Positions 967-34,331 of a stretch of DNA of 35,163 nucleotides are shown here, piece after piece. The DNA lies in the IMG/VR virus record IMGVR_UViG_3300037222_000012, positions 1 through 35,163 of that record. One strand, 5' to 3'. Both the position numbers and the translations under genes were made by a program. The notes beneath the pieces were generated by a model, which was given only the letters and a program-made list of their open reading frames with translations, did not search any database and was not told where the DNA came from. Every line of letters begins with the position of its first letter. Position 1 is the stretch's first letter. The stretch is from a virus.

Positions 967-1032
967 GCATCCTACAGGAAAACCTCTAGGTAACTTTGAG
1001 TGACATTGCAACGCATGGCCGTTACACACGGT

Positions 1033-1080
1033 CACACGCCGCAAAATCGCGCAAAATCCACTCGAAAACTTGACGGAACA
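1033..1080 (-). repeat. Upstream element copy B (tandem ATTTTGCG)
   Basis: This is the partner of copy A at 1-48. Read leftward it has TCGAGTGGA followed by ATTTTGCG, CG and ATTTTGCG. It lies immediately after the stop of the 1084-1263 gene and about 70 bp upstream of the promoter at 939-966, where an activator or repressor site would sit. Function is inferred from position only. Confidence 0.45.
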
Positions 1081-1083
1081 AAA

Positions 1084-3395: not shown

Positions 3396-4180
3396 TGCCT
3401 GCCTTCACTCTTGAGGACCAATCCTTCCTCAACTTTGTTGAACAGTTTTGGTTAGCGCACGAACGGCTACCTTCTCAAAAGGAAACAGACGAAGCGGGAT
3501 TCAAATTAACTCAATGGCGGCGAGTTGTTAGCTCGGAGGATTTCAAAGAGGAACTTAGTCTCCGCGGGATTCCTAGGTCAGTTCTTGAGGAATTGCAGAA
3601 CGCTATTCCTGACCGGAAGGTTTTGACGGATAGGCAACTCTCCTTTATTAGCGTTTACCTCGACTACCACGATAAGCGTTCGCAGACTAAGAAGTTAGCC
3701 GAAGCTGGAATTAGTACAGGCGAATGGCAGCAATGGATTCTTGACCCGACTTTTCAAAAGGTTTTAAAACAGAAATCCAACGCGATTGTTCGTGGGGCCG
3801 GAATTGCCGAAGCAGATAACGCGCTTGTGCAAAAAGTGCGCTCGGGTGACGTGCGCGCTATTGATTACATTAACGCACTCACCGGAAGGTTTGACCGAAG
3901 CGCTAGTTCCACTAAAGAAGCGCCGTTTGATATTAAGGCGTTTATTGTTCGGGTGATGGAGTCGATTCAGAAGAACGTCAAAGACCCGAATGTTATTGAA
4001 GCCATTGCGACAGACCTGCTGATTCTTGCCAACGCCGAAGGTTTCGCTTCCAGAGTTATGACACAACTTGAACCTTTGAAGATTCCGATTCCTGTAGACG
4101 CACCTAGACACGTTATTAGCGAGGCGATTGCAATTCCAATGCAGGAAGTAATCGACATAAAGGAAGCGGCAGGACTCTAA
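3395..4180 (+). CDS. terS: Terminase small subunit
   Basis: This encodes 261 residues. The central part (about 76-130) reads LTDRQLSFISVYLDYHDKRS, then KLAEAGISTGEWQQWILDP and a downstream F-x2-L-L. This is the pattern of the homeodomain-like phage terminase small subunit: LT-x-RQ, a run of helices, AG(I/V)S, then W-x2-DP-x-F. The N-terminal 70 residues look like a second small helical domain. TerS recognises the packaging site on concatemeric DNA and brings in the TerL motor. It sits one gene before terL with overlapping stop/start codons on both sides. The C-terminal half is helical and probably forms the oligomer. Calling it terS rests on this motif and on gene order. Confidence 0.8.
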   Translation: MPAFTLEDQSFLNFVEQFWLAHERLPSQKETDEAGFKLTQWRRVVSSEDFKEELSLRGIPRSVLEELQNAIPDRKVLTDRQLSFISVYLDYHDKRSQTKKLAEAGISTGEWQQWILDPTFQKVLKQKSNAIVRGAGIAEADNALVQKVRSGDVRAIDYINALTGRFDRSASSTKEAPFDIKAFIVRVMESIQKNVKDPNVIEAIATDLLILANAEGFASRVMTQLEPLKIPIPVDAPRHVISEAIAIPMQEVIDIKEAAGL

Positions 4181-4622: not shown

Positions 4623-6174
4623 GAGTAAGCAGCAACCGTTAGAAATCGGTGAGGCTATTCGTAGTCTCGCCGAGGGTATGCTTGTCCAAGCTAAGAATCC
4701 TAGTGTTTTAAATTATAAACCTCATGCTAAGCAATACGCATTTCATTCTAGTGATGCTCGGATGCGTTTATATATTGGAGGAAACAGAAGTGGAAAAACA
4801 GTCGGGGGGGTTGTTGAAGATTGTTTATGGCTCATGGGAAAACATCCCTGGCGTCGAACTCCATTATTGCCCGTCAGGGGACGAGTCGTTGGTGTTGACT
4901 TCATTAACGGGATCGACAAGAACATTATCCCTCAAATCTCTCAGTGGCTACCCACGTCAGAACTTAAGGGTGGCTCGTGGGACTCGGCTTACAATAAGGA
5001 ACTTCGCACTTTAACATTAGAGAACGGTTCCTTCATTGAGTTTATGAGTTACGATCAGGACTTGGATAAGTTCTCTGGAACTAGTCGGCACTTCGTACAT
5101 TTTGACGAGGAACCACCGAAGGATATTTTCACAGAATGTTTCTTGCGTACAGTTGACGTAGGTGGGTCTATGTGGATAACAATGACTCCTGTAGAAGGCA
5201 TGACGTGGATTTACGACGATATCTACGAGCCCGGCTTAATTCATCAGCGGGAATCTACAGAAGTCATTACTGTCGATATGACCGAAAACCCTTACTTATC
5301 TCAAGGGGAAATTCAAGCCCTTGTTAATAGTTTGGATGCCGAAGATCGTGAGGCCCGAGTTCATGGGAAATTCGTCAGGCTCGGGGGACTTATTTACAAA
5401 GACTTCTCGGTCGATACGCACGTTATACCGAGGGGAAGTCTCGATATACCGAAAGATGGAATTATCATTGCGTCACTCGATGCGGGATACAATAACCCTA
5501 CCGCGTGGCTCTGGCATTATGTCGATCCAGACGGTAATCCAACAACCTTTAAGGAACACTACGCAAGCGGTATGGTTGTTGAAGAACATGCTCAACGAGT
5601 ACATGAGATTAACAAAGAAATTGGACGAGCACCTGATTATTACGTGGGTGACCCCTCAATTCAAAATACGAGCGCCAATGGAACCTCGATACAGCAGGAC
5701 TACATTAAGTACGGTATACCTATCCTTTTGGGTAACAATGCTGTTAGAGACGGCATTAATAGAGTTGCCGGATATTTGCGCGTTCGTCCTGACGTGGGAC
5801 CAAGATGGCACGTTACAGCAAATTGTACGGCACTTATAAGTGAAATGCTTAAGTACCGTTGGAAAACTTACGCTAACCGACGGTTGATTAACCAGAACAA
5901 CTTACAGGAAGAACCGCATAAGAAGAACGACCACGCTTGCGACTCCCTCCGATATTTCATTATGAGTCAACCAGATATTGCTAGCGGATACATTGGACGA
6001 ACTACTAAGACAAGTAGTCCTAATGATTGGGTAGGCGCTCCTTCTGCTATTGATCCTCTAATGCCACAGTTACATGAACCACGTAGTCCTAGTGATTTCA
6101 ATTCCGAATACAATTCAACTGGAACATTTACAGTTGACTCTGATGGCAGTGACGATTTTGGGAGCGAGTGGTGA
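4612..6174 (+). CDS. terL: Terminase large subunit
   Basis: The packaging motor: an N-terminal ATPase pumps DNA into the prohead and a C-terminal RNase H-like nuclease cuts concatemers. From the GTG at 4612 (520 residues) Walker A is GGNRSGKT (about 56-63) and Walker B with the catalytic Glu is FVHFDEEP (D165, E166). TMTPVEG (about 190) is the coupling motif. The nuclease carboxylates are visible as SLDAGYNNP (D290), VGDPS (D347) and DHACDSLRYF (D440/D444). The frame is open to a TTG at 4519, but that extension overlaps the 37-residue gene and forms a false transmembrane segment; an ATG at 4675 is the other option. Length is normal for the family. The message continues into two tiny membrane proteins. 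Confidence 0.93.
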   Translation: MPPKSKQQPLEIGEAIRSLAEGMLVQAKNPSVLNYKPHAKQYAFHSSDARMRLYIGGNRSGKTVGGVVEDCLWLMGKHPWRRTPLLPVRGRVVGVDFINGIDKNIIPQISQWLPTSELKGGSWDSAYNKELRTLTLENGSFIEFMSYDQDLDKFSGTSRHFVHFDEEPPKDIFTECFLRTVDVGGSMWITMTPVEGMTWIYDDIYEPGLIHQRESTEVITVDMTENPYLSQGEIQALVNSLDAEDREARVHGKFVRLGGLIYKDFSVDTHVIPRGSLDIPKDGIIIASLDAGYNNPTAWLWHYVDPDGNPTTFKEHYASGMVVEEHAQRVHEINKEIGRAPDYYVGDPSIQNTSANGTSIQQDYIKYGIPILLGNNAVRDGINRVAGYLRVRPDVGPRWHVTANCTALISEMLKYRWKTYANRRLINQNNLQEEPHKKNDHACDSLRYFIMSQPDIASGYIGRTTKTSSPNDWVGAPSAIDPLMPQLHEPRSPSDFNSEYNSTGTFTVDSDGSDDFGSEW

Positions 6175-6420: not shown

Positions 6421-6867
6421 ATGACCGAACTTTCAAGTGATGTTGTCACTAATGACTTTACTGGCAGTAAGTTGCCACAAAAGACTGGCGACCCAAGTAT
6501 TGATTTTTCGCCGCCGACTACTACAATTGTTACTGTGGACCAGTTAGATGTTACTCGTTTTCCGCAGGGCAGTATGGTTGCAACACACCAGTTACGTTTG
6601 CCGAGTCATGCCCCGTATTTGGATGACGCTGCGGCTCAGGGTAATTCTACTGAGGACGCATTAACTTCCGTTACTCAGGAGGGTGTGCTTACTCCGTCGG
6701 GACATTTTCACTCAGATGTTAAGGCAAAGTTCGAGGGCGACCCTTACGTTCCTGTAGATAACGTAGGAACCGATGTTGTCGAACCAGAAGTTGTTGAAGT
6801 TCCGGTTCAGGAAGTTCCTGCTCAGCCGAATACTTTTGGGGTTACAACTCCAATTGTTGTCAATTAA
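6421..6867 (+). CDS. Acidic, Pro/Val-rich hypothetical structural protein
   Basis: This encodes 148 residues, with a strong ribosome site (GGAGGT 6 nt before the ATG). It is acidic and low in predicted structure, with a Val/Glu/Pro-rich tail (EPEVVEVPVQEVPAQP). The location between terL and portal and the strong ribosome site suggest a virion or assembly protein. Family not recognised. The intergenic stretch 6344-6420 shows no gene. Confidence 0.7.
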   Translation: MTELSSDVVTNDFTGSKLPQKTGDPSIDFSPPTTTIVTVDQLDVTRFPQGSMVATHQLRLPSHAPYLDDAAAQGNSTEDALTSVTQEGVLTPSGHFHSDVKAKFEGDPYVPVDNVGTDVVEPEVVEVPVQEVPAQPNTFGVTTPIVVN

Positions 6868-7561: not shown

Positions 7562-9713
7562 TGCTTCGTCATCGGATACTGGTGATACAGTATTAGATTC
7601 GATTAAAAAGCAAAAAGATGATGCAGATACTTTATCGTGGATTATGAGGCAATACAGACGTTGCAAGTCACAACGGGTTTATGTAGAACGCCAGTGGTAC
7701 GTCAATCTGGCGTTCTACTTTGGTAAGCAGAATATTAAAGTTATTGCTGCCAACGGGGCTGCTAGTAATGGATTTCTACTGACAGTTCCTAAAGCGCCTC
7801 CGTGGCGTATCCGTATGGTTGTTAATCGTTGCCGTACATTTGTTCTTAAGCAGATGGCAAACCTCACTAGCCAGGAACCTAAGTTTTATTCTGTCCCGGC
7901 CGGAACAAGTGACGAAGATGCAACCAGTGCTCGTATTGCAGAGAGCATTATTGACAGCTACTATCGTGAAGAACAGTACAAATTAAAGTTGCGGCGACTT
8001 CTCTTTTGGGGAAGTATTTGTGGAACATCTTTCTTTAAGACCTATTGGGACAAAAGTCAGAAAGATGCTAATGGAAATCAAGGAAAAATTACAACAGATG
8101 TTATTGATCCTTTTCATCTCTATGTACCAGATTTGCTTCAACAGGATTTAGAGCTTCAACCATTTCTCATCCATGCATCTACTATGTCGCCAGAAATGGT
8201 AAAGAGAATTTATGGGGTTGAAGTAACTGCTAACGCTACAACTAGCGTAAACTTACTTGAAGATCAGTTTCTTAATTTAACAGGTAACGGCAAGGTTCCT
8301 AGTAAATTTAACGCAGTTCTGGTTCTTGAATGCTGGATTAAGCCTGGGTCATATGACCGATTTCCCGACGGTGCAATGATTACGGTTGCGGGGGATAAAC
8401 TAGTTCAAAATAAGCCTGGGTGGCCTTACGACCACAAGGAGTATCCCTTTGCAAAATTCGACGACATTGACACCGGAAAATTCTATGGTGAAGGCGTACT
8501 TACAGATATTGTCCCGTTACAGAGGGAATATAACCGTAAGCGAAGCCAAATTGTTGAGAACACAAATCTTATTGCGAAGCCGAAATTACTCGCGCCGCGA
8601 GGCTCGATTAATCCTTCTGCGATTACTTCGGAGCCCGGTCAGGTAATTCTTTACACTCCTGGATTTAATCCTCCTACACCTTTACCTATTGCACCACTTC
8701 CAGCCTATGTCGAAAATGACATTCAACAGCTAATGTCTGACATGCAGGACTTAGTTGGGCAGCACGACCTTTCGCATATTGTAGGCACGAGAACTTCTGC
8801 AACAATGCTAGCAGCTATTCAACAACAGGACGCACTAATTATCCAGGGTGCCGCTACAAACATTGAGCAAGTTACTCAGATAACAGGTCGTCAAGTTCTT
8901 GCATTGGTGAAGCAGTTTTGGACTACCACTCGAACAATTAAGGTTGTAGGTTATGACGAAGCCTTCGAAATCCTTGCGTTTAAGAATACTGATATTACGA
9001 GCAATACCGAGGTTTATGTCGAAACAGGAAGCGCTCTACCGGTTAACAGAGCGGGTCGCCAAGCTTTCTTAATGGATGCGTTTAAGTTGGGATTAATTCC
9101 TGATCCTAACGACGTATTAGATTTGATGGATATTGGTGGGGTTGCTAAGATTCAACAGGATATGTTGATTGACCAGCGCCAAGCTCAGCGCGAGAATCAA
9201 CAAATGGTCGCACTTGGCAAAAATCCACCTGCTGCTGACTTTAACTTCCCCGACAATATTGATCCAATGGCTGACCTACTTAATGTCGTTCAAGAATCTG
9301 GTGAAGTTCCTGGGCAACCTGATCCTGACGAGAATGCAAATGTTCCGCAGTTTGTTCCTAATACGTGGGATAACCACACTGTCCATATTCAAATTCATAA
9401 CCGATTCCGTAAGTCTGAAAAATTTGAATCACTTGATGATTTAACTAAGAAGATTTTTCAGAACCATGTTGCCTTGCATGAACAGGCATTGCAGCAGAAT
9501 ACTAGTGGTCAGCCAATACCAGCCCAACCAGGAATACAACCTACAGACGAAGCAACTGCTAATGCACAACCTGCTCCTGCAGAACAACCAACGCAAGCAG
9601 GGGATGTTGGTGGAGATAAATCAGGAATAGAAAATGTAGGTAATGCAATACCTCAGGGACTTCCTGTAGGAATCACTACTCGGGCCGGTAATTATATTGA
9701 GAGGACTCTCTAA
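7509..9713 (+). CDS. Portal protein
   Basis: This encodes 734 residues, the length of P22/SU10-like portals. It forms the dodecameric ring at the capsid vertex through which DNA is packaged and ejected, and which nucleates head assembly. Family-typical stretches are an N-terminal RxVYVERQWYVNLAFYFG helix, then MVVNRCRTFVLKQMANLTSQ-P. Next come the LRRLLFWGSICGTSFFKTYW core, FYGEGVLTDIVPLQREYNRK and a long helical barrel-like C-terminus ending in a Gln/Pro-rich tail. The ATG at 7509 is preceded by AGGA 11 nt upstream; no other start fits the frame. Gene order after terL supports the call. The low-complexity Gln/Ala/Pro tail (about 650-715) is probably disordered or internal. Confidence 0.9.
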   Translation: MTSTTLTETATQPLSSRNASSSDTGDTVLDSIKKQKDDADTLSWIMRQYRRCKSQRVYVERQWYVNLAFYFGKQNIKVIAANGAASNGFLLTVPKAPPWRIRMVVNRCRTFVLKQMANLTSQEPKFYSVPAGTSDEDATSARIAESIIDSYYREEQYKLKLRRLLFWGSICGTSFFKTYWDKSQKDANGNQGKITTDVIDPFHLYVPDLLQQDLELQPFLIHASTMSPEMVKRIYGVEVTANATTSVNLLEDQFLNLTGNGKVPSKFNAVLVLECWIKPGSYDRFPDGAMITVAGDKLVQNKPGWPYDHKEYPFAKFDDIDTGKFYGEGVLTDIVPLQREYNRKRSQIVENTNLIAKPKLLAPRGSINPSAITSEPGQVILYTPGFNPPTPLPIAPLPAYVENDIQQLMSDMQDLVGQHDLSHIVGTRTSATMLAAIQQQDALIIQGAATNIEQVTQITGRQVLALVKQFWTTTRTIKVVGYDEAFEILAFKNTDITSNTEVYVETGSALPVNRAGRQAFLMDAFKLGLIPDPNDVLDLMDIGGVAKIQQDMLIDQRQAQRENQQMVALGKNPPAADFNFPDNIDPMADLLNVVQESGEVPGQPDPDENANVPQFVPNTWDNHTVHIQIHNRFRKSEKFESLDDLTKKIFQNHVALHEQALQQNTSGQPIPAQPGIQPTDEATANAQPAPAEQPTQAGDVGGDKSGIENVGNAIPQGLPVGITTRAGNYIERTL

Positions 9714-10360: not shown

Positions 10361-11137
10361 ATGTCAGAACCCCAGGGCAATGAGGTTGTTGTACCGCCAG
10401 TAGTTACGGAACCTCAAAGTACAGGACACCCCGCATGGGAAGAAGCTTTAGCTGAACTTCCTGAGGGATTACGTCCATTAGTTACTCCTACTTTTGAAAA
10501 GTGGGATAAAGGCGTTCAGGAAAGATTAGCTAAAGAGAAGGAGATTTACGCTCCTTGGAAAGAGTTAATCGACGCACAAGTTGATCCTGCTGCTGCTGCA
10601 CAAGCTTTAAATCTCATGCAGGCAATTGATAATGACCCTGCCGGAGTTATTAAAGTTCTGCAGGAAGCATACGGATTAACTAAGGCAGAAGCTAAAGCAG
10701 TTGTTGCAGACGTACAGCAAACACCAACTGGTGAAGAACTTTCACCGGAAGCAAAGAGGATTGCCGAATTAGAAGCAAGACTTAATGAAGTTGCTACAGG
10801 TGTTCAAGCTCAGACGAAAGCCCAGCAAGATGCTAAGAATGCACAAGATTTAAGAGTTTTTATGGACAATGTAAAAGCAAAGTTTCCTACCGTTCCAGAA
10901 CAATATCTTCTCCCGTATGTTGCACAGGGTTTAGATGTTGAAAAAGCTGCAAAGGATTATCTTGACGGTATAGAAGCTGCCGTTCAGGCGGCAAAAGCTC
11001 CCGGAGATAATGCTCCTGTAGTGATGGGTTCAGGTGGAGGAACAGTTACAAACCAGCAGGACTTAACTAAGCTTAGTGAAAAAGAAAGAAAAGACTTAGC
11101 AATACGAATGCTCGAAGAAGCGAGTCGTTCAAAGTAA
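10361..11137 (+). CDS. Capsid scaffolding protein
   Basis: This encodes 258 residues, immediately before the major capsid gene. The N-terminus has HPAWEEALAELPEGLRPLV followed by TPTFEKWDKGVQERL and YAPWKELID, the signature of scaffolds in many actinophages and siphophages. An acidic helical middle and a coiled-coil region (about 130-170) follow, and the C-terminal 30 residues are a charged helix (SEKERKDLAIRMLEEASRSK) of the kind that binds coat protein. The scaffold guides coat assembly and leaves before DNA filling. The ribosome site is AAGGAC. Confidence 0.85.
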   Translation: MSEPQGNEVVVPPVVTEPQSTGHPAWEEALAELPEGLRPLVTPTFEKWDKGVQERLAKEKEIYAPWKELIDAQVDPAAAAQALNLMQAIDNDPAGVIKVLQEAYGLTKAEAKAVVADVQQTPTGEELSPEAKRIAELEARLNEVATGVQAQTKAQQDAKNAQDLRVFMDNVKAKFPTVPEQYLLPYVAQGLDVEKAAKDYLDGIEAAVQAAKAPGDNAPVVMGSGGGTVTNQQDLTKLSEKERKDLAIRMLEEASRSK

Positions 11138-12436: not shown

Positions 12437-14257
12437 ATGACAACACTTTCCGACTTGGTGTTTGCCGCATTGGCAAATAAGTCTGGGCTTACCCCTGCTT
12501 CTTCATATTCTATGGCTGATCACGCCATGTATGTTCTTACTAATGGCAGTTCCGGCGGTGGGGGTATTACCCCTCCTGTAGGTGATATTGGTGGAACTTC
12601 GGGTGCCCCTACTGTTGTAAGTACACACCTATCTGCTGCATTACCTGTTAATCAGGGTGGTACTGGAAGCACTACACAAAATACTAATGCTGGTGACTCG
12701 GTAACTAAGAGTTATGTTGATGCTGCAATTGCAGCATTAGACTTAAAACCAGAAGCACAATGGGCAACTACTGCTGCATTGGCAGCTAATACTTACTTAA
12801 CTGGTGTTATTACTGAAACAGGTAATGGCGCTTTAACTGTTGATGGCACAGCCGTTGCAGTTAATGATCGAGTTCTTGTTAAAAATGAAGCTACTCAACA
12901 AAATAACGGTTTATACTCTGTTACTGCTACTGGTTCTGGTGCAGCACCCTTTGTATTAACTCGTGTCGCTGATATGAATACTAATGCTTCAATCCCCGGT
13001 GCATTAGTTGTTATTCAAAAGGGTACAGTTAATGCCGGTAGCCTATGGGGTGTCTTTAATCCTGGGCCATTTATAATTGGTACAACGGCAATTGTATGGT
13101 CTGGATTAGACGTTGGTCCAGATTTAGTAGCTGGTTCTGGTATCACTGTTACAGGCTCTACAATTGCAGCCAAAACATTAGATTTACTTCCTGCTCCTGC
13201 GGCTGCTGTGGCATTTAATGCACAAAAAATTACAGGACTTGCTAACGGCTCAGGTGCCCAGGATGCCGCAGCTTTTGGTCAAATTCCAACAGCACTTCCG
13301 CCTAATGGTGCTGCTGGTGGGGACTTAAGTAGTACATACCCTAATCCTACTGTAGCTAAGGTACAAGGTGTCGCTATTACCGCTGGTTCGGCGACACTTG
13401 TATCACAACTTAATGGTTCAACGACACGTTCAGCTACTGCAACTCTTATTGCTGGGGAAGAAACAGTTTTTACTGGTTCTACTGCCGCGCAAACATTGAC
13501 ACTACCGGCCAGTACAGCGCAAGCATCGTCTCTTAATACTATTGCTAATACATCATCAGTGTCAGTAACAATCGCCGCTGGCGCTGGCACCACACTTAAT
13601 GTCGGTGGTGTTGCAGGTAGCGTTGTTCTCTCAGCGGGTTTTTCTATAGAATTTGCTTTAATTGGCACTGTTTGGTACGCTCTAAATTTCGGTCCGCTGT
13701 CTCGGGGTTATGCTCTCGCGTCTGATTATAATTACGCAGCAATGACTGTGCAGCCAGACTTTCTCCCTGTTGCCTCTGCTGCCATGAACAACGCTGGGAC
13801 GATCACTGGGTCGGTAATGCGCTTAGACCACGTTGCGCCAATTACAAGCTTAGATTTTTCGATATCTACCGCCGGTGCTTCATTAACCGCTGGTCATTGT
13901 GAGGTTGGCGTCTACGATCCGAGCAAAACCCTTATAGGCCACGCATTTACAGCAGATGGTGCAACTGATTTGGCTACTGTTCTAGTCGGCTCAACTGGAC
14001 GGCATACGAGTACGTTAATAGCTGACGGAACTGGCTTAACAGGCTTATTGCCGGGTAATTATTATGCAGTAATTTATCAGAATGGCACCACCGCGGCGAT
14101 CCTCAAGGCACCATCGAACTCCACCCTTGTGAACGGCAACCTGTCGGCGGCTAATAGTAAGTATTTTACTGCTGACACTGGCCGAGTCAATTCCCTCCCG
14201 GCATCATTAGGTGCATTTACCGCACGATCGGGTGCCGACTGGTTTGCGATATTCTAG
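12437..14257 (+). CDS. Tail fibre protein
   Basis: This encodes 606 residues, with AAAGGAG 8 nt upstream. Recognisable fibre elements in order are LPVNQGGTGSTT (about 75) and a TKSYVDAAIAALDLKPEAQW region leading into an adhesin-like module (about 95-225; LTVDGTAVAVNDRVLVKNEA, NGLYSV). Then come ITGLANGSGAQDAAAFGQIP and GGDLSSTYPNPTV (about 296-310), all frequent in phage fibres. The C-terminal third (about 425-606) is a separate beta-rich domain and the likely receptor-binding head. It is Ala/Gly/Thr-rich throughout and has no signal peptide. It opens the host-recognition cassette. Confidence 0.75.
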   Translation: MTTLSDLVFAALANKSGLTPASSYSMADHAMYVLTNGSSGGGGITPPVGDIGGTSGAPTVVSTHLSAALPVNQGGTGSTTQNTNAGDSVTKSYVDAAIAALDLKPEAQWATTAALAANTYLTGVITETGNGALTVDGTAVAVNDRVLVKNEATQQNNGLYSVTATGSGAAPFVLTRVADMNTNASIPGALVVIQKGTVNAGSLWGVFNPGPFIIGTTAIVWSGLDVGPDLVAGSGITVTGSTIAAKTLDLLPAPAAAVAFNAQKITGLANGSGAQDAAAFGQIPTALPPNGAAGGDLSSTYPNPTVAKVQGVAITAGSATLVSQLNGSTTRSATATLIAGEETVFTGSTAAQTLTLPASTAQASSLNTIANTSSVSVTIAAGAGTTLNVGGVAGSVVLSAGFSIEFALIGTVWYALNFGPLSRGYALASDYNYAAMTVQPDFLPVASAAMNNAGTITGSVMRLDHVAPITSLDFSISTAGASLTAGHCEVGVYDPSKTLIGHAFTADGATDLATVLVGSTGRHTSTLIADGTGLTGLLPGNYYAVIYQNGTTAAILKAPSNSTLVNGNLSAANSKYFTADTGRVNSLPASLGAFTARSGADWFAIF

Positions 14258-21722: not shown

Positions 21723-22643
21723 ATGGCCGCACCTGTGACTAATTATTCTGCCGGGAACAATATTTATGGCTCCGGCAGTCCCCAGGCAACTATGGGAACC
21801 GTTGACCCTACGGGTTACATTGACCGTTCTCTAAATAACCCTTCGCAAAGCAGAAGTGGTTTAGCCGCTGCGGCTATTCAAAGATTAAATGGGACGCCAC
21901 AATTTGCTCCTGGTGATCCTGGTGTTGGGCAATTAAACGGTACACCCCCGCAGTATACACCACCGCTTACAGGTGCTAATTATGGGTCTAATGGTACTGA
22001 TCCTTTGCAGCAGATTTCTCAAAGTGTTTTTAATCAGAACAGTCCTGCGGATCAATCGTTAGCCCAGCAACGTTCACCCGGTGGCGCGTTGCCTGTTCCT
22101 AAGGTGGCGCCTTTAAATGTCAACTCCATCGGACAAATTAGCCTTCCGCCTTCTCAGTCATTACCTCTCGATGCTGATTTGGCGGCACAAGAAGCTGCAC
22201 AAACATCAGCAGCTAATAATCAACTTGCTCAGTTCCAAAATCAACAGCAAGCTTTAGCTGCTCAATACGCATTAAGTGCTCATAATCAGTCAGAGAAATT
22301 CCCAGGCGTACTTAATGCGCTTCTTGCTAATTATGGTTCCGGTCGTGGATTGGGTTTTAGTTCAGGATACGGAACAGCTTATAACAATGACCAGAATGCC
22401 CAACAGCAAGCATTAGATCAATTGTATTCAGCGGCTCAGCAAGGATTAGCTGGCGTTCAGACTAATGCAGCCCTAGTTCCTACTACTCTTTCTAATGCTA
22501 TTCAGCAAATTCTTGCTACGCAAGCTGCTCGTAATAATACACTATTGAATGCTGGTGGAACTACAGGACTATCTGGTGTCCCAGCATTAACATTGAATCC
22601 TAAGGCTGCGGGAGTAGCTGGCGGCGTAGGAGGCTTATACTAA
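21723..22643 (+). CDS. Gln/Asn-rich internal virion (ejection-type) protein
   Basis: This encodes 306 residues, low in Cys and charge and high in Gln, Asn, Ala, Gly and Pro. The N-terminal half is probably disordered (SGSPQATMGTVDP, GTPPQYTPPLTG). The second half is helical (ADLAAQEAAQTSAANNQLAQ) with LDQLYSAAQQGLAGVQTNAA. Proteins of this kind between the nozzle and a very large virion protein are typically ejected with DNA in short-tailed phages. It has its own leaderless promoter. Confidence 0.6.
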   Translation: MAAPVTNYSAGNNIYGSGSPQATMGTVDPTGYIDRSLNNPSQSRSGLAAAAIQRLNGTPQFAPGDPGVGQLNGTPPQYTPPLTGANYGSNGTDPLQQISQSVFNQNSPADQSLAQQRSPGGALPVPKVAPLNVNSIGQISLPPSQSLPLDADLAAQEAAQTSAANNQLAQFQNQQQALAAQYALSAHNQSEKFPGVLNALLANYGSGRGLGFSSGYGTAYNNDQNAQQQALDQLYSAAQQGLAGVQTNAALVPTTLSNAIQQILATQAARNNTLLNAGGTTGLSGVPALTLNPKAAGVAGGVGGLY

Positions 22644-24001: not shown

Positions 24002-27000
24002 TGCCTGTCAACTTGAGTGCATTACTTCAAGGGGCTGCTATCCCAAAGGTGGCGGCTCCTTTAGTTGCGCCCTCAGTTCCTAAAATAGCTCCGACGGCAC
24101 CCCCAATGAGTCCATTAAGTCAAGCATTAGCTAATATTTTAGCGGGTAGTGGGGCAGCGCAGCCTAATGTTTCGGCCCCTATTACTCCCTCTGTAGGGGG
24201 GTTTCAGTTCCCTAATTTTACATTAGGAAGTACAGACACTTCTACTGGAACTACTGGACCGGCACTTGATCCAAAGGTTCAAAAACTCTCTAATATTTAT
24301 GCTGCTGATGCTGCAAAATCTGCTGCATTAGGAATGGCGCCTCCATCACATCGACCAAGTTTAATTCACCGGGTATTTGATCTACTTTCACGTCCTGAGT
24401 ATGCTGTCAGTAATGCTCTTTTGCAAGGTGATAAAGCTGTTTCTCAGGGTAAGAGTTGGCTGGATCAATTTGGAGCTATGGGTAGCGGTGCATTATCGGG
24501 TCTTGAGGGTAAATCTAAGACTATGTATGGGGATGTTATCCAGCAGTTGCGAGATGCTGCTAATGCTCGTGGTCAAAGTGGTTTTGAAAACACTTTATTA
24601 GGTCACAGTCCCGTAACTTATACTCCTGGGCAATCTGGTCCAATGCAAAGTATTTTGGGTAAGGGTTTGACTATTGGTGCTAATATTGTAGGTGACCCGT
24701 TAAACTTAGTTTCAGGTGTTGGAGTTCCTGAAAAACTTACTAATGTAGCCAAAACTTTAGGAAAAGCTGGTGAGGTTTCCGATGCTACAAAAGCTGCGGA
24801 TGCGTTGGGGGCAGTTCATGGAATTTCTGCACCAGGGGAGCTAACTAGTTTAGTTCGTCCTGCAACTGCAATTCCATCAGTAACTCAAGCAACTCAAACT
24901 GAGTCACGAGTACAGCAAATTCTGGATCAATTACAACCGCATATGAATCAAGAGCATTTAGCACTTAATACTAAATTAGCTGAGCAAGCCGGTTTAGGTG
25001 GTCCAGTATTACGAACTGGACAAACTACTACGACTAAGTTGGCTAAAACCGTTCAGAATATTGACAGGGGTATTCGTCCTGCTGATTTAATTGGTACGGG
25101 TAAGCGTGCTGAAACTAATCGTTTGGCTATGGAAATTCGTGGTCAATCTACTGCCGATGCAGCAAAAGCTTATAAGGATATGCAATCTAGTGTCTTAGAA
25201 GATATGACTAGAGCAACTCGTCCTGCCACTATTCGTCGTGCTGGTGTTAAAATTGCTGGAAAGCAATTAACTTTAACTCCTGAGGCTATTTCGAGTAGAC
25301 TTAGAAGTTTAGGTAATGAATCAGGCATTAATGAGGCTACTAGAGCATTCCAAAAGGCATTCATTTCTACAGGAAGAATGAGTCCTGAATTACAAGCAGT
25401 AAGTGGAGCAAGTCGAGGAATGTCTCATGGCCCTTGGGCTTCTTTAATTCACACTATGGGCGATCGTTTTCATGGTATGAATGAAGGGGCCATCGGCAAT
25501 TCCTTACGTCACGTTGTAAATAATACACCAGAATTAGGTTCAAGTCCTGAAATTGAAGCTGCAATCCACGCCCATGTTGGAGATATTGTAGATAAATTGC
25601 AAAATAGTAATGAGCATGGACTAAATATTACAGACTTTAATCATCACTTATCGGGTAAAGATAAACTCACTCTTAATCCTGAGAGTGCTAATATTATTCA
25701 AAATGGTACTCGGGATCAAGCTATTAAAGAGCTAGAAATGACAATGTCTCGTGGGGTTGAGGCCAATAAGAGCCACCCTCTTGACTATTTAGCTCGTTTA
25801 GGTAATGGTGGAATCAAGGCTGATGCTGCAAAAGCTATTCGTAGTCAACTTGTTAAGTTTGGTATTAAAGATGAGGGTCCAGTAGCAGAAGCTCTTAAGA
25901 ATACTCATGGATATAAGGAGTTGAAACAGACGCCTGGATTTATCTATCACCCCGATATTCATAACGATGCCAGTCGTATGTTTGACCTCCTTACTAATCA
26001 TGGGCAATCGGAAGAATTTACAAACCAGCTTGGTAAGATCGTAACTCTGTGGAAGAAATTAGCTACAATTTACAACTTGCCAGGCTATCCGACCCGTAAC
26101 TTTATTGCTAACTCGTATATGGCTTGGTTGGTTGGTGGGCAGCACGGATTAGGTGCTTTTAAATCTTCTATAATGGCTGCTAAGCAAATGGCGCATCGAC
26201 TTGATAAAGTTGACCGTGGGAGTATTGACCCGGTTCGTGCAGTTCTAAAGAAAGAAATGGACAAAGAAATTGGTGGAACAGGACCAGTTTTATATCATAC
26301 AAAAGGTGGATTTCCCGTTTCGCCTGATCTTAACGATGCCGCGTATCGCGGGAATGGACTCGAATCGACTTTTACGGGAACTACATATACTTCGCATCCT
26401 GCGACAGCAACGGGAGTTAGAGCAGCAGCACATAAAGTAAATGCTTCTGTTTTAGCCGCTAACAAAGCTGTTGAAGATTTCGGTCGGCACGGAGTATTTA
26501 TTCATCACATGCGTATGAGTAGCGCCAAAAATCAAGCAGAGTTTGAAAAAGAGGCTGCGTTAGCTGCTAATAAGGTTCGTAAGGCACTCTTTGACTATGG
26601 AGATAGTACGGCCTTTGAAAAGAAAACAATGGTTAAGTTGTTCCCGTTCTACAAATGGAATAGGAAAGCTATTCCGGCTCTGTTTCATGGGCTCCTAGAC
26701 CACCCTGGGAAAGTCTTGAACTTCCAGATGGCGCTAGAACAGGGTCTACAATTAGCCTCTGGGCACCCTGCGCCGCCTAATGACCCTTGGGGATTAAATC
26801 AAGTTGAACCATTAAGTCGTATTCCTTCATATATTGCACAAAGAATGAGCACTCCGTTTGGAAAAATGGGTAAGACTGGCGCTCAGCAATATCTTGATCC
26901 AGCTATTCCATTTAACGACGAGCTAAGATTGTTAGGTGATCCCTCATCTATCATTTCTCAGATAAGCCCACTTTTACGGGTGCCTATTGAGGATACAATG

Positions 27001-27327
27001 GGTAAGCAGTTTTTCCATGACTTACCCATTAAGAATCGTTTACAGTATTCAACAGTAGGACAGGTCAACATTCTTCGTTCATTATTGAAAGCATCAGGAA
27101 ATAGCGGTGCTCCTGTAGGAGCTTCTGGAAGCACTACAGGAAGTACGGCAACAAGTAAGAGTCCTCTTGATGCAATCTTGCAAACCTTTAATCCACTTAA
27201 TTCAATAGTAGGTCCGCAGCAAAATACGCCTAAATCACAAGCTTCTACTTTATTAGCAAATAATACAGCCTTAGCAAAGAAGATTAAGGCCCTCCACGAT
27301 GCGGCGGTAAAAAATGCTGGTGGCTAG
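24001..27327 (+). CDS. Very large internal virion (ejection) protein, 1108 aa
   Basis: This is the largest gene here. It has a Pro/Ala-rich N-terminus (about 1-75) and mixed helical domains. An amphipathic region around 690-720 contains YNLPGYPTRNFIANSYMAWL. A conserved-looking block follows near 820-910 (FGRHGVFIHHMRMS, ALFDYGDSTAFEKKTMVKLF, PFYKWNRKAIPALFHGLLDH). Such blocks occur in large virion proteins of many phages and are thought to help DNA cross the envelope. The C-terminus is Gly/Ser/Thr-rich and then basic. No lytic transglycosylase signature was seen. The end overlaps the next gene by 14 nt. Confidence 0.65.
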   Translation: MPVNLSALLQGAAIPKVAAPLVAPSVPKIAPTAPPMSPLSQALANILAGSGAAQPNVSAPITPSVGGFQFPNFTLGSTDTSTGTTGPALDPKVQKLSNIYAADAAKSAALGMAPPSHRPSLIHRVFDLLSRPEYAVSNALLQGDKAVSQGKSWLDQFGAMGSGALSGLEGKSKTMYGDVIQQLRDAANARGQSGFENTLLGHSPVTYTPGQSGPMQSILGKGLTIGANIVGDPLNLVSGVGVPEKLTNVAKTLGKAGEVSDATKAADALGAVHGISAPGELTSLVRPATAIPSVTQATQTESRVQQILDQLQPHMNQEHLALNTKLAEQAGLGGPVLRTGQTTTTKLAKTVQNIDRGIRPADLIGTGKRAETNRLAMEIRGQSTADAAKAYKDMQSSVLEDMTRATRPATIRRAGVKIAGKQLTLTPEAISSRLRSLGNESGINEATRAFQKAFISTGRMSPELQAVSGASRGMSHGPWASLIHTMGDRFHGMNEGAIGNSLRHVVNNTPELGSSPEIEAAIHAHVGDIVDKLQNSNEHGLNITDFNHHLSGKDKLTLNPESANIIQNGTRDQAIKELEMTMSRGVEANKSHPLDYLARLGNGGIKADAAKAIRSQLVKFGIKDEGPVAEALKNTHGYKELKQTPGFIYHPDIHNDASRMFDLLTNHGQSEEFTNQLGKIVTLWKKLATIYNLPGYPTRNFIANSYMAWLVGGQHGLGAFKSSIMAAKQMAHRLDKVDRGSIDPVRAVLKKEMDKEIGGTGPVLYHTKGGFPVSPDLNDAAYRGNGLESTFTGTTYTSHPATATGVRAAAHKVNASVLAANKAVEDFGRHGVFIHHMRMSSAKNQAEFEKEAALAANKVRKALFDYGDSTAFEKKTMVKLFPFYKWNRKAIPALFHGLLDHPGKVLNFQMALEQGLQLASGHPAPPNDPWGLNQVEPLSRIPSYIAQRMSTPFGKMGKTGAQQYLDPAIPFNDELRLLGDPSSIISQISPLLRVPIEDTMGKQFFHDLPIKNRLQYSTVGQVNILRSLLKASGNSGAPVGASGSTTGSTATSKSPLDAILQTFNPLNSIVGPQQNTPKSQASTLLANNTALAKKIKALHDAAVKNAGG

Positions 27328-28225: not shown

Positions 28226-28930
28226 ATGCCTACTTTATACCCTTTGGCTGCTTATAAACCATTAGGTTCTCAAACACAGCCGAGATTAGTAAACCCGTCC
28301 GCAATAATCCTACACACAATGGATGGTTATTTACATGGAACTGATGCCACCTTTAGGCCAAACGGATATCACGGTGATGAATCGCATTTCGGAGTCGGTG
28401 GACCGGCAGACGGACAATCTTTTGACGGGGCAGTTTGGCAATGGCAAGACCTTGATTACACAGCCGACGCGCAATATTCGGGTAACTCCTACGGGATTTC
28501 CATTGAAACTAGTGACGGAGGACAACCTAACACCCCTTGGAGTCCTAAACAACTCGAATCAATTACCTCTCTGGTAATATGGCTTTGTCAAAAGTACAAC
28601 TTGCCACCAGTTTTAATGGCACACTCAACTGATAAGGGCATTGGTTTTCACTCACAATTCCATGAATGGAATTTAGATGCACACAATTGCCCTGGTGGCA
28701 CGCGAGCAGCGCAGCTTATTTTAGATGTAATTCCAGCAGTTAAAGCTAGGATTACAATTCCTCAACCTATTCCTGTAGGAGACGAATTGCCAAGCGTAGA
28801 AGATGTACTCAATGGTTTAGACGCCGCAATGACTAGTACATTAGCAGGAACTCCGGTTCCCGGTACTAAGTTTATTGACGGTTTAGCCAAGCGTATCCTA
28901 GAGTTTCAGGCGCAGCAAGCAGGTAAGTAA
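28226..28930 (+). CDS. Endolysin: N-acetylmuramoyl-L-alanine amidase (Amidase_2 type)
   Basis: This encodes 234 residues. The N-terminal 170 residues fit the zinc amidase fold of the Amidase_2/PGRP family. AIILHTMDG gives the first His ligand (H30), YGISIETSDGG the conserved Glu (E94), and GIGFHSQF plus AHNCPGGTRAAQ the distal His (H142 or H153) and Cys (C155) ligands. It would cut the bond between muramic acid and the stem peptide. The C-terminal 60 residues (PVGDELPSVEDVLNGLDAA) lack a recognisable LysM or SH3 wall-binding domain and may bind the wall in another way. No signal peptide, so release needs the holin just upstream. The stop overlaps the next start (TAATG). Confidence 0.9.
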   Translation: MPTLYPLAAYKPLGSQTQPRLVNPSAIILHTMDGYLHGTDATFRPNGYHGDESHFGVGGPADGQSFDGAVWQWQDLDYTADAQYSGNSYGISIETSDGGQPNTPWSPKQLESITSLVIWLCQKYNLPPVLMAHSTDKGIGFHSQFHEWNLDAHNCPGGTRAAQLILDVIPAVKARITIPQPIPVGDELPSVEDVLNGLDAAMTSTLAGTPVPGTKFIDGLAKRILEFQAQQAGK

Positions 28931-29367
28931 TGGACCGTTTAGTTACAAGATTATTATGTAAAATCCTACAGGAAACTCGAAGAAATGGGAAGAAAATGGC
29001 AGACTTAGATCAAGCATTACAGGACGTTCTTAATGAGATTGGGCAACTTCCCGGTCTTATTACCCAGGCAGTTCAGGCTGCGGTTACTGCTGCAAATGGT
29101 GGAGATGCCGCACAATTACAAGCTGCATTACAGCACCAGCAGAATGTTGCAGATTCATTAGAGCAGGGTGTCGCAGCAATTCAAGCTGCATTTAATGTTC
29201 CTGCACCTGCACCGGCTGCTCCAATTAGTATTCCGCCAGCCGGAGCACCTGCACCTAATCCGGTAGTTGTTACAGACAGTTCAGGGACTCCGGTAAATGG
29301 TCCATTAACTCCTGACCCAACAATTACGGACCCAACAGTTACGGACCCTAATCAAGCTGTAAATTAA
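28930..29367 (+). CDS. Ala/Pro-rich helical protein after the endolysin (145 aa)
   Basis: From the ATG overlapping the lysin stop this is 145 residues; an internal ATG at 28996 (MADLDQALQDVLNEIGQL) with GGGAAG upstream is an equally good start giving 123. A helical part (about 23-92) is followed by a Pro/Ala linker and a tail with TDPT repeats (PDPTITDPTVTDP). Small helical proteins with such tails occur at the ends of actinophage late operons. Function unknown. A strong terminator follows 15 nt after the stop. Confidence 0.6.
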   Translation: MDRLVTRLLCKILQETRRNGKKMADLDQALQDVLNEIGQLPGLITQAVQAAVTAANGGDAAQLQAALQHQQNVADSLEQGVAAIQAAFNVPAPAPAAPISIPPAGAPAPNPVVVTDSSGTPVNGPLTPDPTITDPTVTDPNQAVN

Positions 29368-30194: not shown

Positions 30195-30647
30195 TTATTT
30201 CCTTCCCTGTTGTGGTTTTCTGATCCCATATTTCTGAAGGAAAAACACGCCGTGGATATAGGCGTTCTCTGCATGGGATGCGATCTTATTAGTTGTTTCC
30301 TTCATGCCCGCGTACTTATAACCAATAGACTTTATATTGGCCGGCTGTAAGACTAATTTGCGGCCGGTTAGGAAACACCAGTATTCGATGACTCCGATAA
30401 CTCGGGTCGTCTCTAAGGGACTCCATGATTGAGCTTTTCCCTTCCAAGGATAGAGAAAATAATCTTCACAGATGACAGTAGTTAAATCAGGGCAAGTAGC
30501 GTGCCACTCCTGTAGGAGTTTGTATAAACCTTCTCGGCCGTCGTAGTTACGTGACGTGCCTTGCTTTACCAAACTTCCACCCAAGTCAAAAGTTGCCCAG
30601 CCTGTTGAATCCCCAGGATCAAGTGCAAGATAAACTACTGGTTCCAT
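30195..30647 (-). CDS. RuvC-like Holliday-junction resolvase
   Basis: This encodes 150 residues, close to the length of RuvC-type enzymes. The RNase H-fold motif YLALDPGDSTGWA holds the first catalytic Asp, CEDYF supplies the Glu and the C-terminal SHAENAYIHGVFF holds the late acidic/His region. Phage resolvases of this group cut branched replication and recombination intermediates before packaging. It has no ribosome site of its own and starts 13 nt inside the preceding microgene, so it is probably translated by coupling. Confidence 0.75.
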   Translation of the reverse strand: MEPVVYLALDPGDSTGWATFDLGGSLVKQGTSRNYDGREGLYKLLQEWHATCPDLTTVICEDYFLYPWKGKAQSWSPLETTRVIGVIEYWCFLTGRKLVLQPANIKSIGYKYAGMKETTNKIASHAENAYIHGVFFLQKYGIRKPQQGRK

Positions 30648-30769
30648 CGGTTTAACATTCTATCAAGAGAGGAATCAATTTCTTTTTCTTCTTCCTCAGG
30701 AGTTTTTAAACCTTTACAATTAGCGCACCATTCTGGAACCATTCCATGTATGCATTCTACTGATTCCAT
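30635..30769 (-). CDS. Zinc microprotein (44 aa) between polymerase and resolvase
   Basis: This is a 44-residue frame overlapping the polymerase end by 13 nt and the resolvase start by 13 nt. It contains CIHGMVPEWCANCKG: one Cys, one His and a CxxC, a pattern (C-x-HG-x3-P-x-WC-x2-C) that I recall in tiny phage proteins. AAGG lies 7 nt upstream. The rest is a charged helix (EEEEKEIDSSLDRML). A zinc-binding replication accessory is plausible. Confidence 0.65.
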   Translation of the reverse strand: MESVECIHGMVPEWCANCKGLKTPEEEEKEIDSSLDRMLNRWNQ

Positions 30770-32508
30770 ATTTTACCTTCTACTTTGAACTTAACATCAA
30801 AGGAGGACCAGTCCGTCATTGCTTTGATTATTTGGGCTTCTACCTTTTCACGGTAGCCTTTTGTAATCTTGAATACAATCTCATCGTGAACTTGCAATAC
30901 CATTTTGCAATCGGGAGATTCAATCTCCTGCAATCTTATTTGGGATCGCTTAACAAGTTCAGCGCCCCCTCCTTGGAGGACGGAGTTAAAAGCTCGGTAA
31001 TAGTCCGATCGTAAATGCCTACGTCTCCCGGTCCATAAACGTACGTACCCCCTTTGTTCCGCCAAATTTGTAGCTCGCCTTCCAGCGGCAATAACTCCGG
31101 GCATAGTTCCTTTAAAGTTTTCGTAATGAGGTCTAGTTGTTTCGGGGTCAGAGGTCGGTAAACCCTCAAACTTAGCAATAGTTGCGCTAGCTTTTGCAAG
31201 ACCGCCTCCATATAACATACAGTAGGTTGAGTGTTTTACAGTTTGTCTTTTGAGTCCAGAGGCGTCGGCGATTTCTTGAAATATGTCCCGCGTCGGATCA
31301 GCAAAAATCTCAAGCAACGCTGGATCGCCACCGTAAGCAACAGCCAAACGGAACTCCAAATTAGAAAAGTCATACCCGATTAACTCCTGTTCGTCATTGT
31401 CTGGAAGGAAAGCTAATTTAGCGTCTCCATTCCACTCCTTCTTACTCTTGCGAGGAACTTGTTGAAGGTTGGGTTTACTACTGCTAAGTCGTCCTGTCTT
31501 AGTTCCGTGTTGTTTGTAATTCGTGTGTATAAACCCTCGGGAATCTGCGAACTTGAGACTCGGTTCATAAAATAAGGACGCAGCAGTAGACCAACCTCGA
31601 TATTCTGCCACAAGTCGTGCGATAGGGTTATTGGAGAGGTTAAGGAGTTCATCGTATTCTACCATCGTTTCTTTATTAAATGAAGGTTTGCCGCCAGGAG
31701 TTCTTGCGAGGACGGGAAGTTTAAGTTCGTCGATAAAAAACTCGCCAAGTTGCTTATTACTTCTTGGGTTGAAGCTGAGGACGGATTCAATAACGCCAGT
31801 ACGATCTTGGCATTTTTCAATTTTTCCTTTGATAAATTCGTGGTCAATTCGCACTCCAAGTTGCTCCATACGATAAAGTACATTCGTGTATTCTTGTTCG
31901 TGCGGCCAGAGTCCATCGAGTTCCTCCGCTACTAGTTTAGGCCATAGAAATTCATGAAGTCGTAAAGTTAACTCAGCATCTTTCTTAGCATACGGTGCCA
32001 TAACCCAACTAGGAATATTCGCCCATCCCCAGGCTTGGACAGCCACTTCTAGTTCCGTCTTATCCTTTTCGTCCTTAAGAAATACTTTCGACAGAGAATC
32101 CAAGGACTTAGAAAAGAATTCCTCATTCCACATATGAGCTTCAACTTGAGTATCATATTGCACGTTCTTAGTATGGTCTAAGTCGACGCCCAAAGTGTGC
32201 AAACTATGTAGGTCAAACTTTCGGTGATGAAACACAAGAGGACGACTATTAAAAACATGGGTAAGTTCTTGTAAGTATGCCATGTCCAAATTGTCCTCGG
32301 AGTGTCGAAAAGGAAAATAGCTACTAAACAAATAACCCCCGACGACACGGTAAGCAACACTAATTCCCCGACAGTAATCTCGGCCATCTACAATCCCTTC
32401 GATTCCTGTAGTCTCGGTATCTACTGCAATAATGTCTGCTTCAAGCATATGAGAAATATGGTCCTTGAAAGCAGACACATCGGCGACAATTACTTTATCA
32501 GCCATCAT
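30757..32508 (-). CDS. Family A DNA polymerase with 3'-5' exonuclease
   Basis: This encodes 583 residues. Exonuclease: VDTETTG (D30, E32), HHRKFDLHSL (D99) and YAKKDAELT (Y173, D177). Polymerase: TGRLSSSKPNLQQVP, motif A GYDFSNLEFR (D380, a variant of DYSQIELR), motif B RQTVKHSTYCMLYGG (R421, K425, Y429, Y433, G434) and motif C LQVHDEIVF (H541, D542, E543). No 5'-3' exonuclease domain, as in phage T7-like enzymes. Tyr429 sits where E. coli Pol I has Phe762. It replicates the genome together with the upstream primase-helicase, whose TGA overlaps its start. The start is 32508 or 32505 (tandem ATGATG). Confidence 0.93.
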   Translation of the reverse strand: MMADKVIVADVSAFKDHISHMLEADIIAVDTETTGIEGIVDGRDYCRGISVAYRVVGGYLFSSYFPFRHSEDNLDMAYLQELTHVFNSRPLVFHHRKFDLHSLHTLGVDLDHTKNVQYDTQVEAHMWNEEFFSKSLDSLSKVFLKDEKDKTELEVAVQAWGWANIPSWVMAPYAKKDAELTLRLHEFLWPKLVAEELDGLWPHEQEYTNVLYRMEQLGVRIDHEFIKGKIEKCQDRTGVIESVLSFNPRSNKQLGEFFIDELKLPVLARTPGGKPSFNKETMVEYDELLNLSNNPIARLVAEYRGWSTAASLFYEPSLKFADSRGFIHTNYKQHGTKTGRLSSSKPNLQQVPRKSKKEWNGDAKLAFLPDNDEQELIGYDFSNLEFRLAVAYGGDPALLEIFADPTRDIFQEIADASGLKRQTVKHSTYCMLYGGGLAKASATIAKFEGLPTSDPETTRPHYENFKGTMPGVIAAGRRATNLAEQRGYVRLWTGRRRHLRSDYYRAFNSVLQGGGAELVKRSQIRLQEIESPDCKMVLQVHDEIVFKITKGYREKVEAQIIKAMTDWSSFDVKFKVEGKIWNQ

Positions 32509-34331
32509 AGTCCCGCCGTCAGGTTAGTTCGATCTATTTTGGCTAGGACTTTCTTCTCCTGTTCAAACTTTTCTTCTGCTGTTAATGGGCGTTCTGCACC
32601 TTGTTTGTAACTGAGTTCTTTTGCAACAGTACCTAATGTTATATCTGCCACACGAATGAAATTGAGCCCTGTGGCAGTTCGTTGAATGTGCCAAGAATCT
32701 CCAAGTTCAGACAGGCGCTTTTTGAGTTCAATAACTTCAATGCCTCTAACGTCGGGCCAGAGACATAAGACGGTCGTAGCGCGGTTAACAATATATTGAC
32801 CCCCGTATACGTCTGACATTTTGTTAGGTTTGCGATTATCCGCTTGAGCTTTCCGGTTGTGGTGGACAAACCACGTTGCGACATTATAAGTTTGCCGGAT
32901 GCGGTCGTTAAAGTCCATGATAAGTTTAACGGTACTCTCACCGAGTTCTCCCGAAGTTGATGAACCTAATGAGTCTACGAACGCAATTTCTGGTTTATGT
33001 TCTTTGATTGTTTCTTCAAAGAATTTTTGGTCATCACTGCCGTCCAAATATAGACTCTCGCCCAAAGGTAAGATAATAAAGTTTTCCTCTAACTTGGATA
33101 CATCTTCCTCGCTCAACGTGGACGCCATCTGCTCTAGGAAATATTTTAGTGCAGCGCCTCCCATTTCGAGTGAGAAAAATACCACTTTCATCGGACGTGT
33201 AACAGGAGTTCCAAGAAACTCTTTTCCCAAAGCTAAATTTATAGCCCATCTTAGACTCCACTGAGTCTTTCCAACACCAGCCGGTCCCGTCAAAAGTAAA
33301 TATCCTGAGCGGTCCAATAGTCCCGGTACTAGCCATTCGAGTTTAATTTCGCTATCAAGGAAGCTTTTAAATCCGTAAGCCTCTGCGCGTTCTCGCAAAA
33401 CAATGCTTGTTCTAATAGGGTGCTTCTCACGTACTCTCGTGATAAGGTCAGATAACCTTCGCGTTCGATCAGTCCGACCCGCAAACTTACCCCATCTATC
33501 ATCAGCATTTCTAATGATCGAGAATAATTCGCTATCCGTGAGTCCATGTTCTGCTCCTAAATATCCGAGTTGCATTAAAGCAGTTGATCGAGTACCCTCT
33601 ACAGGAGACGATTTAAATAAAGTAATGAACGTCACCGAAAAGGCATACCTCATTATTACGTCAAATACGTCTGGAATCGTTCCATCGTCAAGTTCGATAG
33701 GGGGTGTAGTCGGTTCCAGCTTTCTAAAGATTTCTTCACTATAGCTTTGTCCCCCGTTGTATAGTAAAGACGTAGCAAGCTTCCCTCGTTTATGATTAAA
33801 GGTCTCTGGTGGACGTAATATCTGAGTAGCATCCCATGATGATTGATCGGCTCCGAAGGTAATACAGAGTCCTCTGTTGATGGACTCCAATCTTTCGGCC
33901 GACTCAATAGGATTTGATAATCTCCAATACCAGTGTTCATTACCAGGCTCACCGGATTGGAGTCGAAGGCTAGGCATTGGAGTGCTGAAAATTTCCCAAC
34001 CACTCGATCCAGGTGACGCAATTGATAAGGCACGCCCACTGTCAAGTTCAGTCCATACGACGTTGGAAACTTTGAAATTTGATCGGGAGTGGTTATCTCC
34101 ACTATGGTAGAGTCCTGGGGCAACATATACTTCTCGATTTCCTGTAGAGGTTTTAATATAAGCTTTGATTGCATTAAGTTCATCTGGATATTTAAAGAAC
34201 TTTTGCTGCCAATCTTGAATCTTACCTAATGTTTCACGTTCTCCGGTAGCTACATATACGTAACCCTCAAGTCCTTCAAATAGGAAGTTTAAGTAGGCAT
34301 CCAACTCTGAGGATATCTGAACGAGTTGCAA
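32505..34331 (-). CDS. Primase-helicase (AEP primase + RecA-like ATPase)
   Basis: This encodes 608 residues from the TTG at 34331, which has AAGGAG 5 nt upstream; a GTG at 34337 touches that site and is less likely. The N-terminal half looks like an archaeo-eukaryotic-type primase (RepB-like): VVWTELDSGRA (about 92), SGEPGNEHWYWRL (about 128) and DATQILRPPETFNHKRG (about 168-183). The second half is a RecA-like hexameric helicase of the RepA/AAA_25 type: Walker A GPAGVGKT (about 349-356), VVFFSLEMGG (384-393), Walker B IAFVDSLGS (D453) and WFVHHNRK near 487. One protein thus supplies priming and unwinding for the polymerase downstream. Confidence 0.8.
   Translation of the reverse strand: MQLVQISSELDAYLNFLFEGLEGYVYVATGERETLGKIQDWQQKFFKYPDELNAIKAYIKTSTGNREVYVAPGLYHSGDNHSRSNFKVSNVVWTELDSGRALSIASPGSSGWEIFSTPMPSLRLQSGEPGNEHWYWRLSNPIESAERLESINRGLCITFGADQSSWDATQILRPPETFNHKRGKLATSLLYNGGQSYSEEIFRKLEPTTPPIELDDGTIPDVFDVIMRYAFSVTFITLFKSSPVEGTRSTALMQLGYLGAEHGLTDSELFSIIRNADDRWGKFAGRTDRTRRLSDLITRVREKHPIRTSIVLRERAEAYGFKSFLDSEIKLEWLVPGLLDRSGYLLLTGPAGVGKTQWSLRWAINLALGKEFLGTPVTRPMKVVFFSLEMGGAALKYFLEQMASTLSEEDVSKLEENFIILPLGESLYLDGSDDQKFFEETIKEHKPEIAFVDSLGSSTSGELGESTVKLIMDFNDRIRQTYNVATWFVHHNRKAQADNRKPNKMSDVYGGQYIVNRATTVLCLWPDVRGIEVIELKKRLSELGDSWHIQRTATGLNFIRVADITLGTVAKELSYKQGAERPLTAEEKFEQEKKVLAKIDRTNLTAGL

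Follow-up and report, generated by a model that had tools for sequence, protein, structure and literature searches.

Genome and dispersed octamer

The stretch of DNA analyzed here, referred to as the window, comprises positions 1–35,163 of the IMG/VR virus record IMGVR_UViG_3300037222_000012. Its genes include a terminase, a P22/SU10-like portal, an SU10-like capsid protein, a family A DNA polymerase (PolA), and a primase-helicase, and the named phages closest to it are Arthrobacter phage Jasmine, Cellulosimicrobium phage DS1, Microbacterium phage Shocker, and Manatee Spring phage ctEqG8. Like its relative Jasmine, which has 1,330-bp terminal repeats (PMC5513430), the window is a podovirus. 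We consider an octamer, TCCTGTAG, dispersed over this genome, and its relation to the predicted primase encoded there.

Exactly 21 copies of the octamer are present, 14 on the plus and seven on the minus strand, from position 972 to 34140–34147, with a mean spacing of approximately 1.7 kb. These are the same numbers as in an earlier sequence-only reading of the window, which had described the copies as dispersed genome-wide, with about one expected. Dinucleotide shuffles of the window yield 0.80 copies (maximum 4), and Markov models of orders 2–5 predict 1.0, 2.1, 4.1, and 6.4, respectively, the octamer being ranked first by enrichment out of 19,245 octamers under every order. The excess persists in codon-preserving tests: 20 in-gene copies are observed, compared to 2.4 ± 1.6 (maximum 8) in 1000 synonymous-codon permutations and 3.7 ± 1.8 (maximum 10) with neighboring bases kept, and the z-score of 11.9 is the highest among the octamers tested in this way.

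In rightward genes, all 11 plus-strand copies have the reading T-CCT-GTA-G. GTT is the commonest valine codon of the window (351 vs. 175 for GTA), and between CCT and G the valine codon is GTA in 12 cases and GTT in two. Alternative spellings are rare, with no copies of TCCTGTGG and TCCTGTCG in the window and five of TCCTGTTG, and octamer copies in the opposite orientation are read in other phases. Counts of codons and alternative spellings apart, these features had been pointed out by the sequence-only reading, and its conclusion that codon choice alone is insufficient holds as well: as the remaining copies use other reading phases, the excess acts at the DNA level and is not explained by codon choice. 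The informative positions extend to about (T/C)TCCTGTAG(G/A)A.

Distribution of the motif among phages

Most Jasmine-type relatives have a dispersed motif of their own, with the core CTGT-n-G, where n stands for any base except T, and with flanks differing by lineage. Its versions are CTGTAGCG, CTGTAGCC, CCTGTAGG, CCTGTAGA, CCTGTCGG, CTGTGGGA, CTGTGGCG, and CTGTCGC, and strong carriers typically have 20–60 copies against 1–3 expected. Across the family, 480 copies are sense, 394 antisense, and 173 intergenic, with avoidance of phases that place TAG in frame. Neither polarity of motif orientation along the genome nor an origin signal has been found in the family genomes, and the use of both orientations rules out a sense-strand RNA signal. 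The copies are spaced more evenly than at random (Stouffer z of –3.9 pooled and –4.8 per strand); in the window the coefficient of variation of spacing is 0.50, compared to 0.94 for random placement. Unconstrained expectation-maximization motif search drifted to codon periodicity in many genomes, and its results were discarded.

In Shocker, CTGTAAAG was first assumed to be the local version of the motif, and CTGTCG, which is enriched there as well (84 vs. 46), fits the family better. Over the whole Shocker genome TTAGGGTA has 15 copies vs. 0.04 expected and CTGTAAAG has 45 vs. 1.8, the latter forming a near-palindrome as CCTGTAAAGG, with 13 of the 45 outside long open reading frames (ORFs). 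Both are probably regulatory sites separate from the primase motif.

Gene content has been compared in 43 genomes, 32 of them clear motif carriers. PolA is the only family found in all 32 and not present as a whole ORF in any motif-negative genome; this count taken alone is biased, since PolA itself had served to find some of the genomes. In six motif-negative genomes, which are without PolA, the primase-helicase is reduced to its helicase part, and a profile search in all six frames did not find the archaeo-eukaryotic primase (AEP) domain or the helix-bundle domain (HBD). Nearly all six retain the exonuclease, Snf2 helicase, AAA protein, and resolvase, and they have portal, terminase, and capsid genes in common with the carriers. 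One more genome, G041, separates AEP from PolA as a candidate reader of the motif, because its PolA is present (cut by the contig end, matching residues 18–569), its primase is of a different Prim-Pol type (PF09250), and the motif is absent. The motif is also absent from 34 D29-type PolA contigs and from T7, all of which carry PolA. In eight genomes the AEP domain stands alone in one ORF and the HBD is fused to the helicase in another; all eight have CTGTCG with loose flanks.

The AEP domain has also been found by tblastn in phages with unrelated virion genes. In eight such phages read, the top hexamer is GTGTGG for Muddy (Mycobacterium), Troje and Orla (Gordonia), Serbin (Serratia), Lebethron (Pseudomonas), and Triscuit (Microbacterium), and CTGTGC for Yappy (Curtobacterium), while the top heptamer of CN1A (Clavibacter), CCGTGCG, is a less obvious relative. 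Among 54 further contigs with AEP and HBD, 22 have GTGTGG and two have CTGTGG as their top hexamer. Overall, one of four core hexamers is among the top five in 69 out of 90 AEP-positive sequences (Jasmine-type and tblastn-found contigs) and in none of 46 AEP-negative ones, where the median best rank of these hexamers is 240. Hence, at this threshold, the motif is found only with the matching primase (Fisher p = 3e-20, a value that overstates independence, as the sequences are related and a few are near-duplicates).

Other enriched words have been observed in some phages with AEP and HBD, TGTCAAG/GTCAAGG in L313 and L314 and ATTTCGC in L339, L341, and L345; these words might represent additional primase sites or signals of another kind. 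Another dispersed word, CCTGTT, is the top hexamer (64 vs. 17 expected) in the first 50 kb of Arthrobacter phage PrincessTrina, a stretch without the AEP-HBD profile.

Predicted primase-helicase and candidate template site

The primase-helicase of the window (Table 1) is a member of the AEP superfamily and a putative primase, as judged from its sequence and structure model. We required an acidic motif I (D/E-x-D), a conserved His or Gln in motif II, an acidic motif III, and the AEP fold; residues W95/E97/D99, S129/H135/W138, and D164/R175 are conserved, and in Foldseek the AEP domain matches that of cyanophage S-2L PrimPol (6zp9) with TM 0.70 of the target. The model (mean pLDDT 83) comprises the AEP domain, a helix bundle at 224–305 (pLDDT mostly 75–95), and a RecA-fold helicase. 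The bundle follows the catalytic domain, as expected for AEP proteins, and is placed as in RSF1010 RepB'. The helicase domain matches DnaB and RSF1010 RepA in Foldseek and by sequence is closest, among solved helicases, to the latter (1g8y, E = 1.4e-9). In the RepB' family Gln replaces His in motif II (PMC5862659), and the window protein differs in this respect, His135 being invariant in the Jasmine-type alignment; the Muddy protein scores above the Pfam RepB_primase cut-off.

We propose, with a probability of approximately 0.85, that TCCTGTAG is the template recognition site of this predicted primase, a reading that rests on sequence comparison and on analogy with characterized enzymes. The phage helicase would expose single-stranded DNA, the HBD would bind GTAG within 5'-TCCTGTAG-3', and the AEP domain would start a primer on the bases directly 5' of GTAG, with the predicted start 5'-A-G-G-A opposite TCCT, to be extended by PolA. 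With sites on both strands approximately 1–2 kb apart, either strand would be primable whichever the fork direction, and selection for priming would maintain the sites. This is the best-fitting reading, and it was absent from the list given by the sequence-only reading.

The motif agrees with the GTG or GTGG sites of known AEP primases. GTGG is contained in GTGTGG and CTGTGG; these and CTGTGC occur in several phages, and the window and other relatives have GTAG or GTCG variants of GTGG, so that in CTGTAG (window) and CTGTCG (others) T-GTnG is kept and the third base changed. The AEP primase ORF904 of pRN1 uses a GTG template motif and starts the primer at the dinucleotide 5' of this motif (PMC8076596). 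It has the same order of AEP domain, helix bundle, and helicase and the same T-GTG core, and one of its published templates (PMC8076596) reads CTGTGC, also the top hexamer of Yappy. On the other hand, its three-base requirement was shown on oligonucleotides, its helicase is of the SF3 type, and genome-wide enrichment is not described; in Jasmine-type phages the third base is mostly A or C and the flanks lengthen the motif to eight bases. The NrS-1 primase-polymerase, also a phage AEP enzyme with a helix bundle, prefers GTGA or GTGG and uses an eight-base site as well (PMC8718748). It is itself the replicative polymerase and its eight-base site was proposed as a specific start, whereas the window has a separate PolA and dispersed sites. 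RSF1010 RepB' combines the AEP domain with a helix bundle at 220–323, and its site ssiA contains GTG (PMC4434180); in this system there is one hairpin site per strand, replication is by leading-strand synthesis only, and primase and helicase are separate proteins, unlike the single fused protein of the window with dozens of dispersed sites and no hairpin requirement. T7 gp4 is likewise a fused primase-helicase paired with a family A polymerase, but its primase is of the unrelated TOPRIM/DnaG type, with a 3–5 base site (GTC sites; PMC11109968). The best T7 site, GGGTC, is mildly enriched in T7 (93 vs. 56, rank 10 of 512 pentamers), far less than the octamer in the window; its over-representation supports the view that primase sites can be enriched in a genome.

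Table 1. Coordinates of the predicted replication proteins, their domains, and the octamer copies in the window
Feature	Coordinates	Strand	Basis
Primase-helicase, 610 aa, proposed motif reader	32505..34337	-	domains, structure model
AEP primase catalytic domain (~aa 11-205)	33723..34307	-	conserved motifs; Foldseek match 6zp9
Helix-bundle domain (~aa 222-305), proposed GTAG binder	33423..33674	-	five helices in model
RepA/DnaB-like RecA-fold helicase domain (~aa 323-562)	32652..33371	-	PF13481; RSF1010 RepA 1g8y; Foldseek
Family A DNA polymerase, proposed primer extender	30757..32508	-	PF00476, PF01612
TCCTGTAG copy	972..979	-	exact match; intergenic
TCCTGTAG copy	4090..4097	+	exact match
TCCTGTAG copy	5187..5194	+	exact match
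TCCTGTAG copy	6750..6757	+	exact match
TCCTGTAG copy	9662..9669	+	exact match
TCCTGTAG copy	11014..11021	+	exact match
TCCTGTAG copy	12574..12581	+	exact match
TCCTGTAG copy	14598..14605	-	exact match
TCCTGTAG copy	16825..16832	+	exact match
TCCTGTAG copy	18293..18300	+	exact match
TCCTGTAG copy	21043..21050	+	exact match
TCCTGTAG copy	22561..22568	-	exact match
TCCTGTAG copy	25367..25374	-	exact match
TCCTGTAG copy	27111..27118	+	exact match
TCCTGTAG copy	27134..27141	-	exact match
TCCTGTAG copy	28771..28778	+	exact match
TCCTGTAG copy	28966..28973	-	exact match
TCCTGTAG copy	30508..30515	+	exact match
TCCTGTAG copy	32404..32411	+	exact match
TCCTGTAG copy	33599..33606	-	exact match
TCCTGTAG copy	34140..34147	+	exact match

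The replication genes of the window adjoin a tRNA-Leu gene (anticodon TAA, 34763–34836, minus strand), and tRNA-Leu is also present in DS1 and ctEqG8. Among the virion genes, fibronectin type III repeats occur in a 443-aa protein encoded at 16316–17647 (plus strand). Two of the relatives, L009 and L021, are one 62,075-base IMG/VR contig, which has two distinct major capsid genes of the Jasmine type. Either the assembly joined two phages or the genome itself is unusual.

Alternative readings and implications

Several observations weigh against a primase recognition site. The plus and minus copies in the window are unequal in number. The six motif-negative genomes form one clade, which also lost PolA. 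Distances between motifs follow those between AEP/HBD sequences no better than those between other proteins (Mantel test), and all proteins correlate about equally with motif spelling, so that the primase does not stand out by covariation; in the column mutual information, the split-primase clade dominates the signal. Approximately ten of the 54 further contigs with AEP and HBD have no core hexamer in the top 20; these are partial or may have other sites, e.g., TGTCAAG in L313 and L314. Finally, eight bases exceed the three or four needed by the pRN1 or NrS-1 primase.

The alternative that survives best, while still unlikely, is that the motif is bound by a different DNA-binding protein of the phage (a nucleoid-like protein, a silencer, or a regulator) travelling with the AEP primase. 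It would account for copies in both orientations, within and between genes, and for the motif spelling tracking AEP/HBD no better than other proteins. However, no family except PolA combines presence in every carrier with absence from the negatives, the unrelated phages share the AEP-helicase and not the virion genes, and the motif core matches known AEP sites. We consider even less probable a site tied to PolA, e.g., for pausing or nicking in strand displacement: PolA follows the motif through all clear carriers and the six primase-less negatives, but its presence without the motif in G041, the D29-type contigs, and T7 led to its rejection as the reader. Family A polymerases are not known to have a 6–8 base specificity.

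The sequence-only reading had offered a Chi-like recombination site, a host-genome motif, and a packaging signal, and none of the three is retained. Chi sites are host-determined and orientation-biased. The CTGTGGG excess is absent in four phages of other lineages infecting the host of Jasmine (ATCC 21022), and GTGTGG, the top hexamer of Muddy, ranks only 301–423 in D29, also from M. smegmatis mc2 155. As phages that infect the same host but carry other replication genes are without the motif, a host motif or host Chi is not supported in these comparisons, which covered phage genomes and no host chromosomes; moreover, GTGTGG is shared by phages of Mycobacterium, Gordonia, Serratia, and Pseudomonas where the primase is present. 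A Chi-like site for the recombination nuclease of the host, gathered in the phage genome as protection, would explain a short, asymmetric, dispersed, over-represented word, and Jasmine-type phages do encode RecB/Cas4-like exonucleases, but the motif tracks a phage gene and shows no orientation bias, which together with the host controls leaves this explanation hardly credible. A recombination signal that the exonuclease or helicases of the phage would read is unsupported, because the motif is missing from relatives that have these proteins but not the AEP primase. Presence in motif-negative relatives likewise led us to reject as readers the exonuclease, the Snf2 helicase, the AAA protein, and the resolvase. 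A packaging signal is unlikely because virion genes are shared with the negatives and there are dozens of copies in both orientations. A codon-usage or coding artefact, suggested by the CCT-GTA-G reading of most sense copies, is practically negligible, given the 8–10 copies reached at most in codon-preserving shuffles and the enrichment of antisense and intergenic copies across the family.

Searches of the open literature gave no account of AEP sites being enriched throughout a genome, most subscription papers being outside our coverage. With about even odds, phage AEP-HBD primases impose their template specificity genome-wide, so that shifts in specificity (GTGTGG, CTGTGG, CTGTAG, CTGTCG, CTGTGC, with differing flanks) remodel dozens of sites, constituting a co-evolving recognition code. 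If so, this code would limit swaps of replication genes between related phages. Primase specificity is normally established enzyme by enzyme at the bench, and the site of an AEP-HBD primase, that of Muddy included, would become readable from the genome alone; dozens of natural enzymes with differing sites would provide a data set for how the helix bundle reads DNA. The recognition of TCCTGTAG and its relatives by phage primases would also explain the recurrence of short words across phage genes, and offer a testable account of lagging-strand priming.

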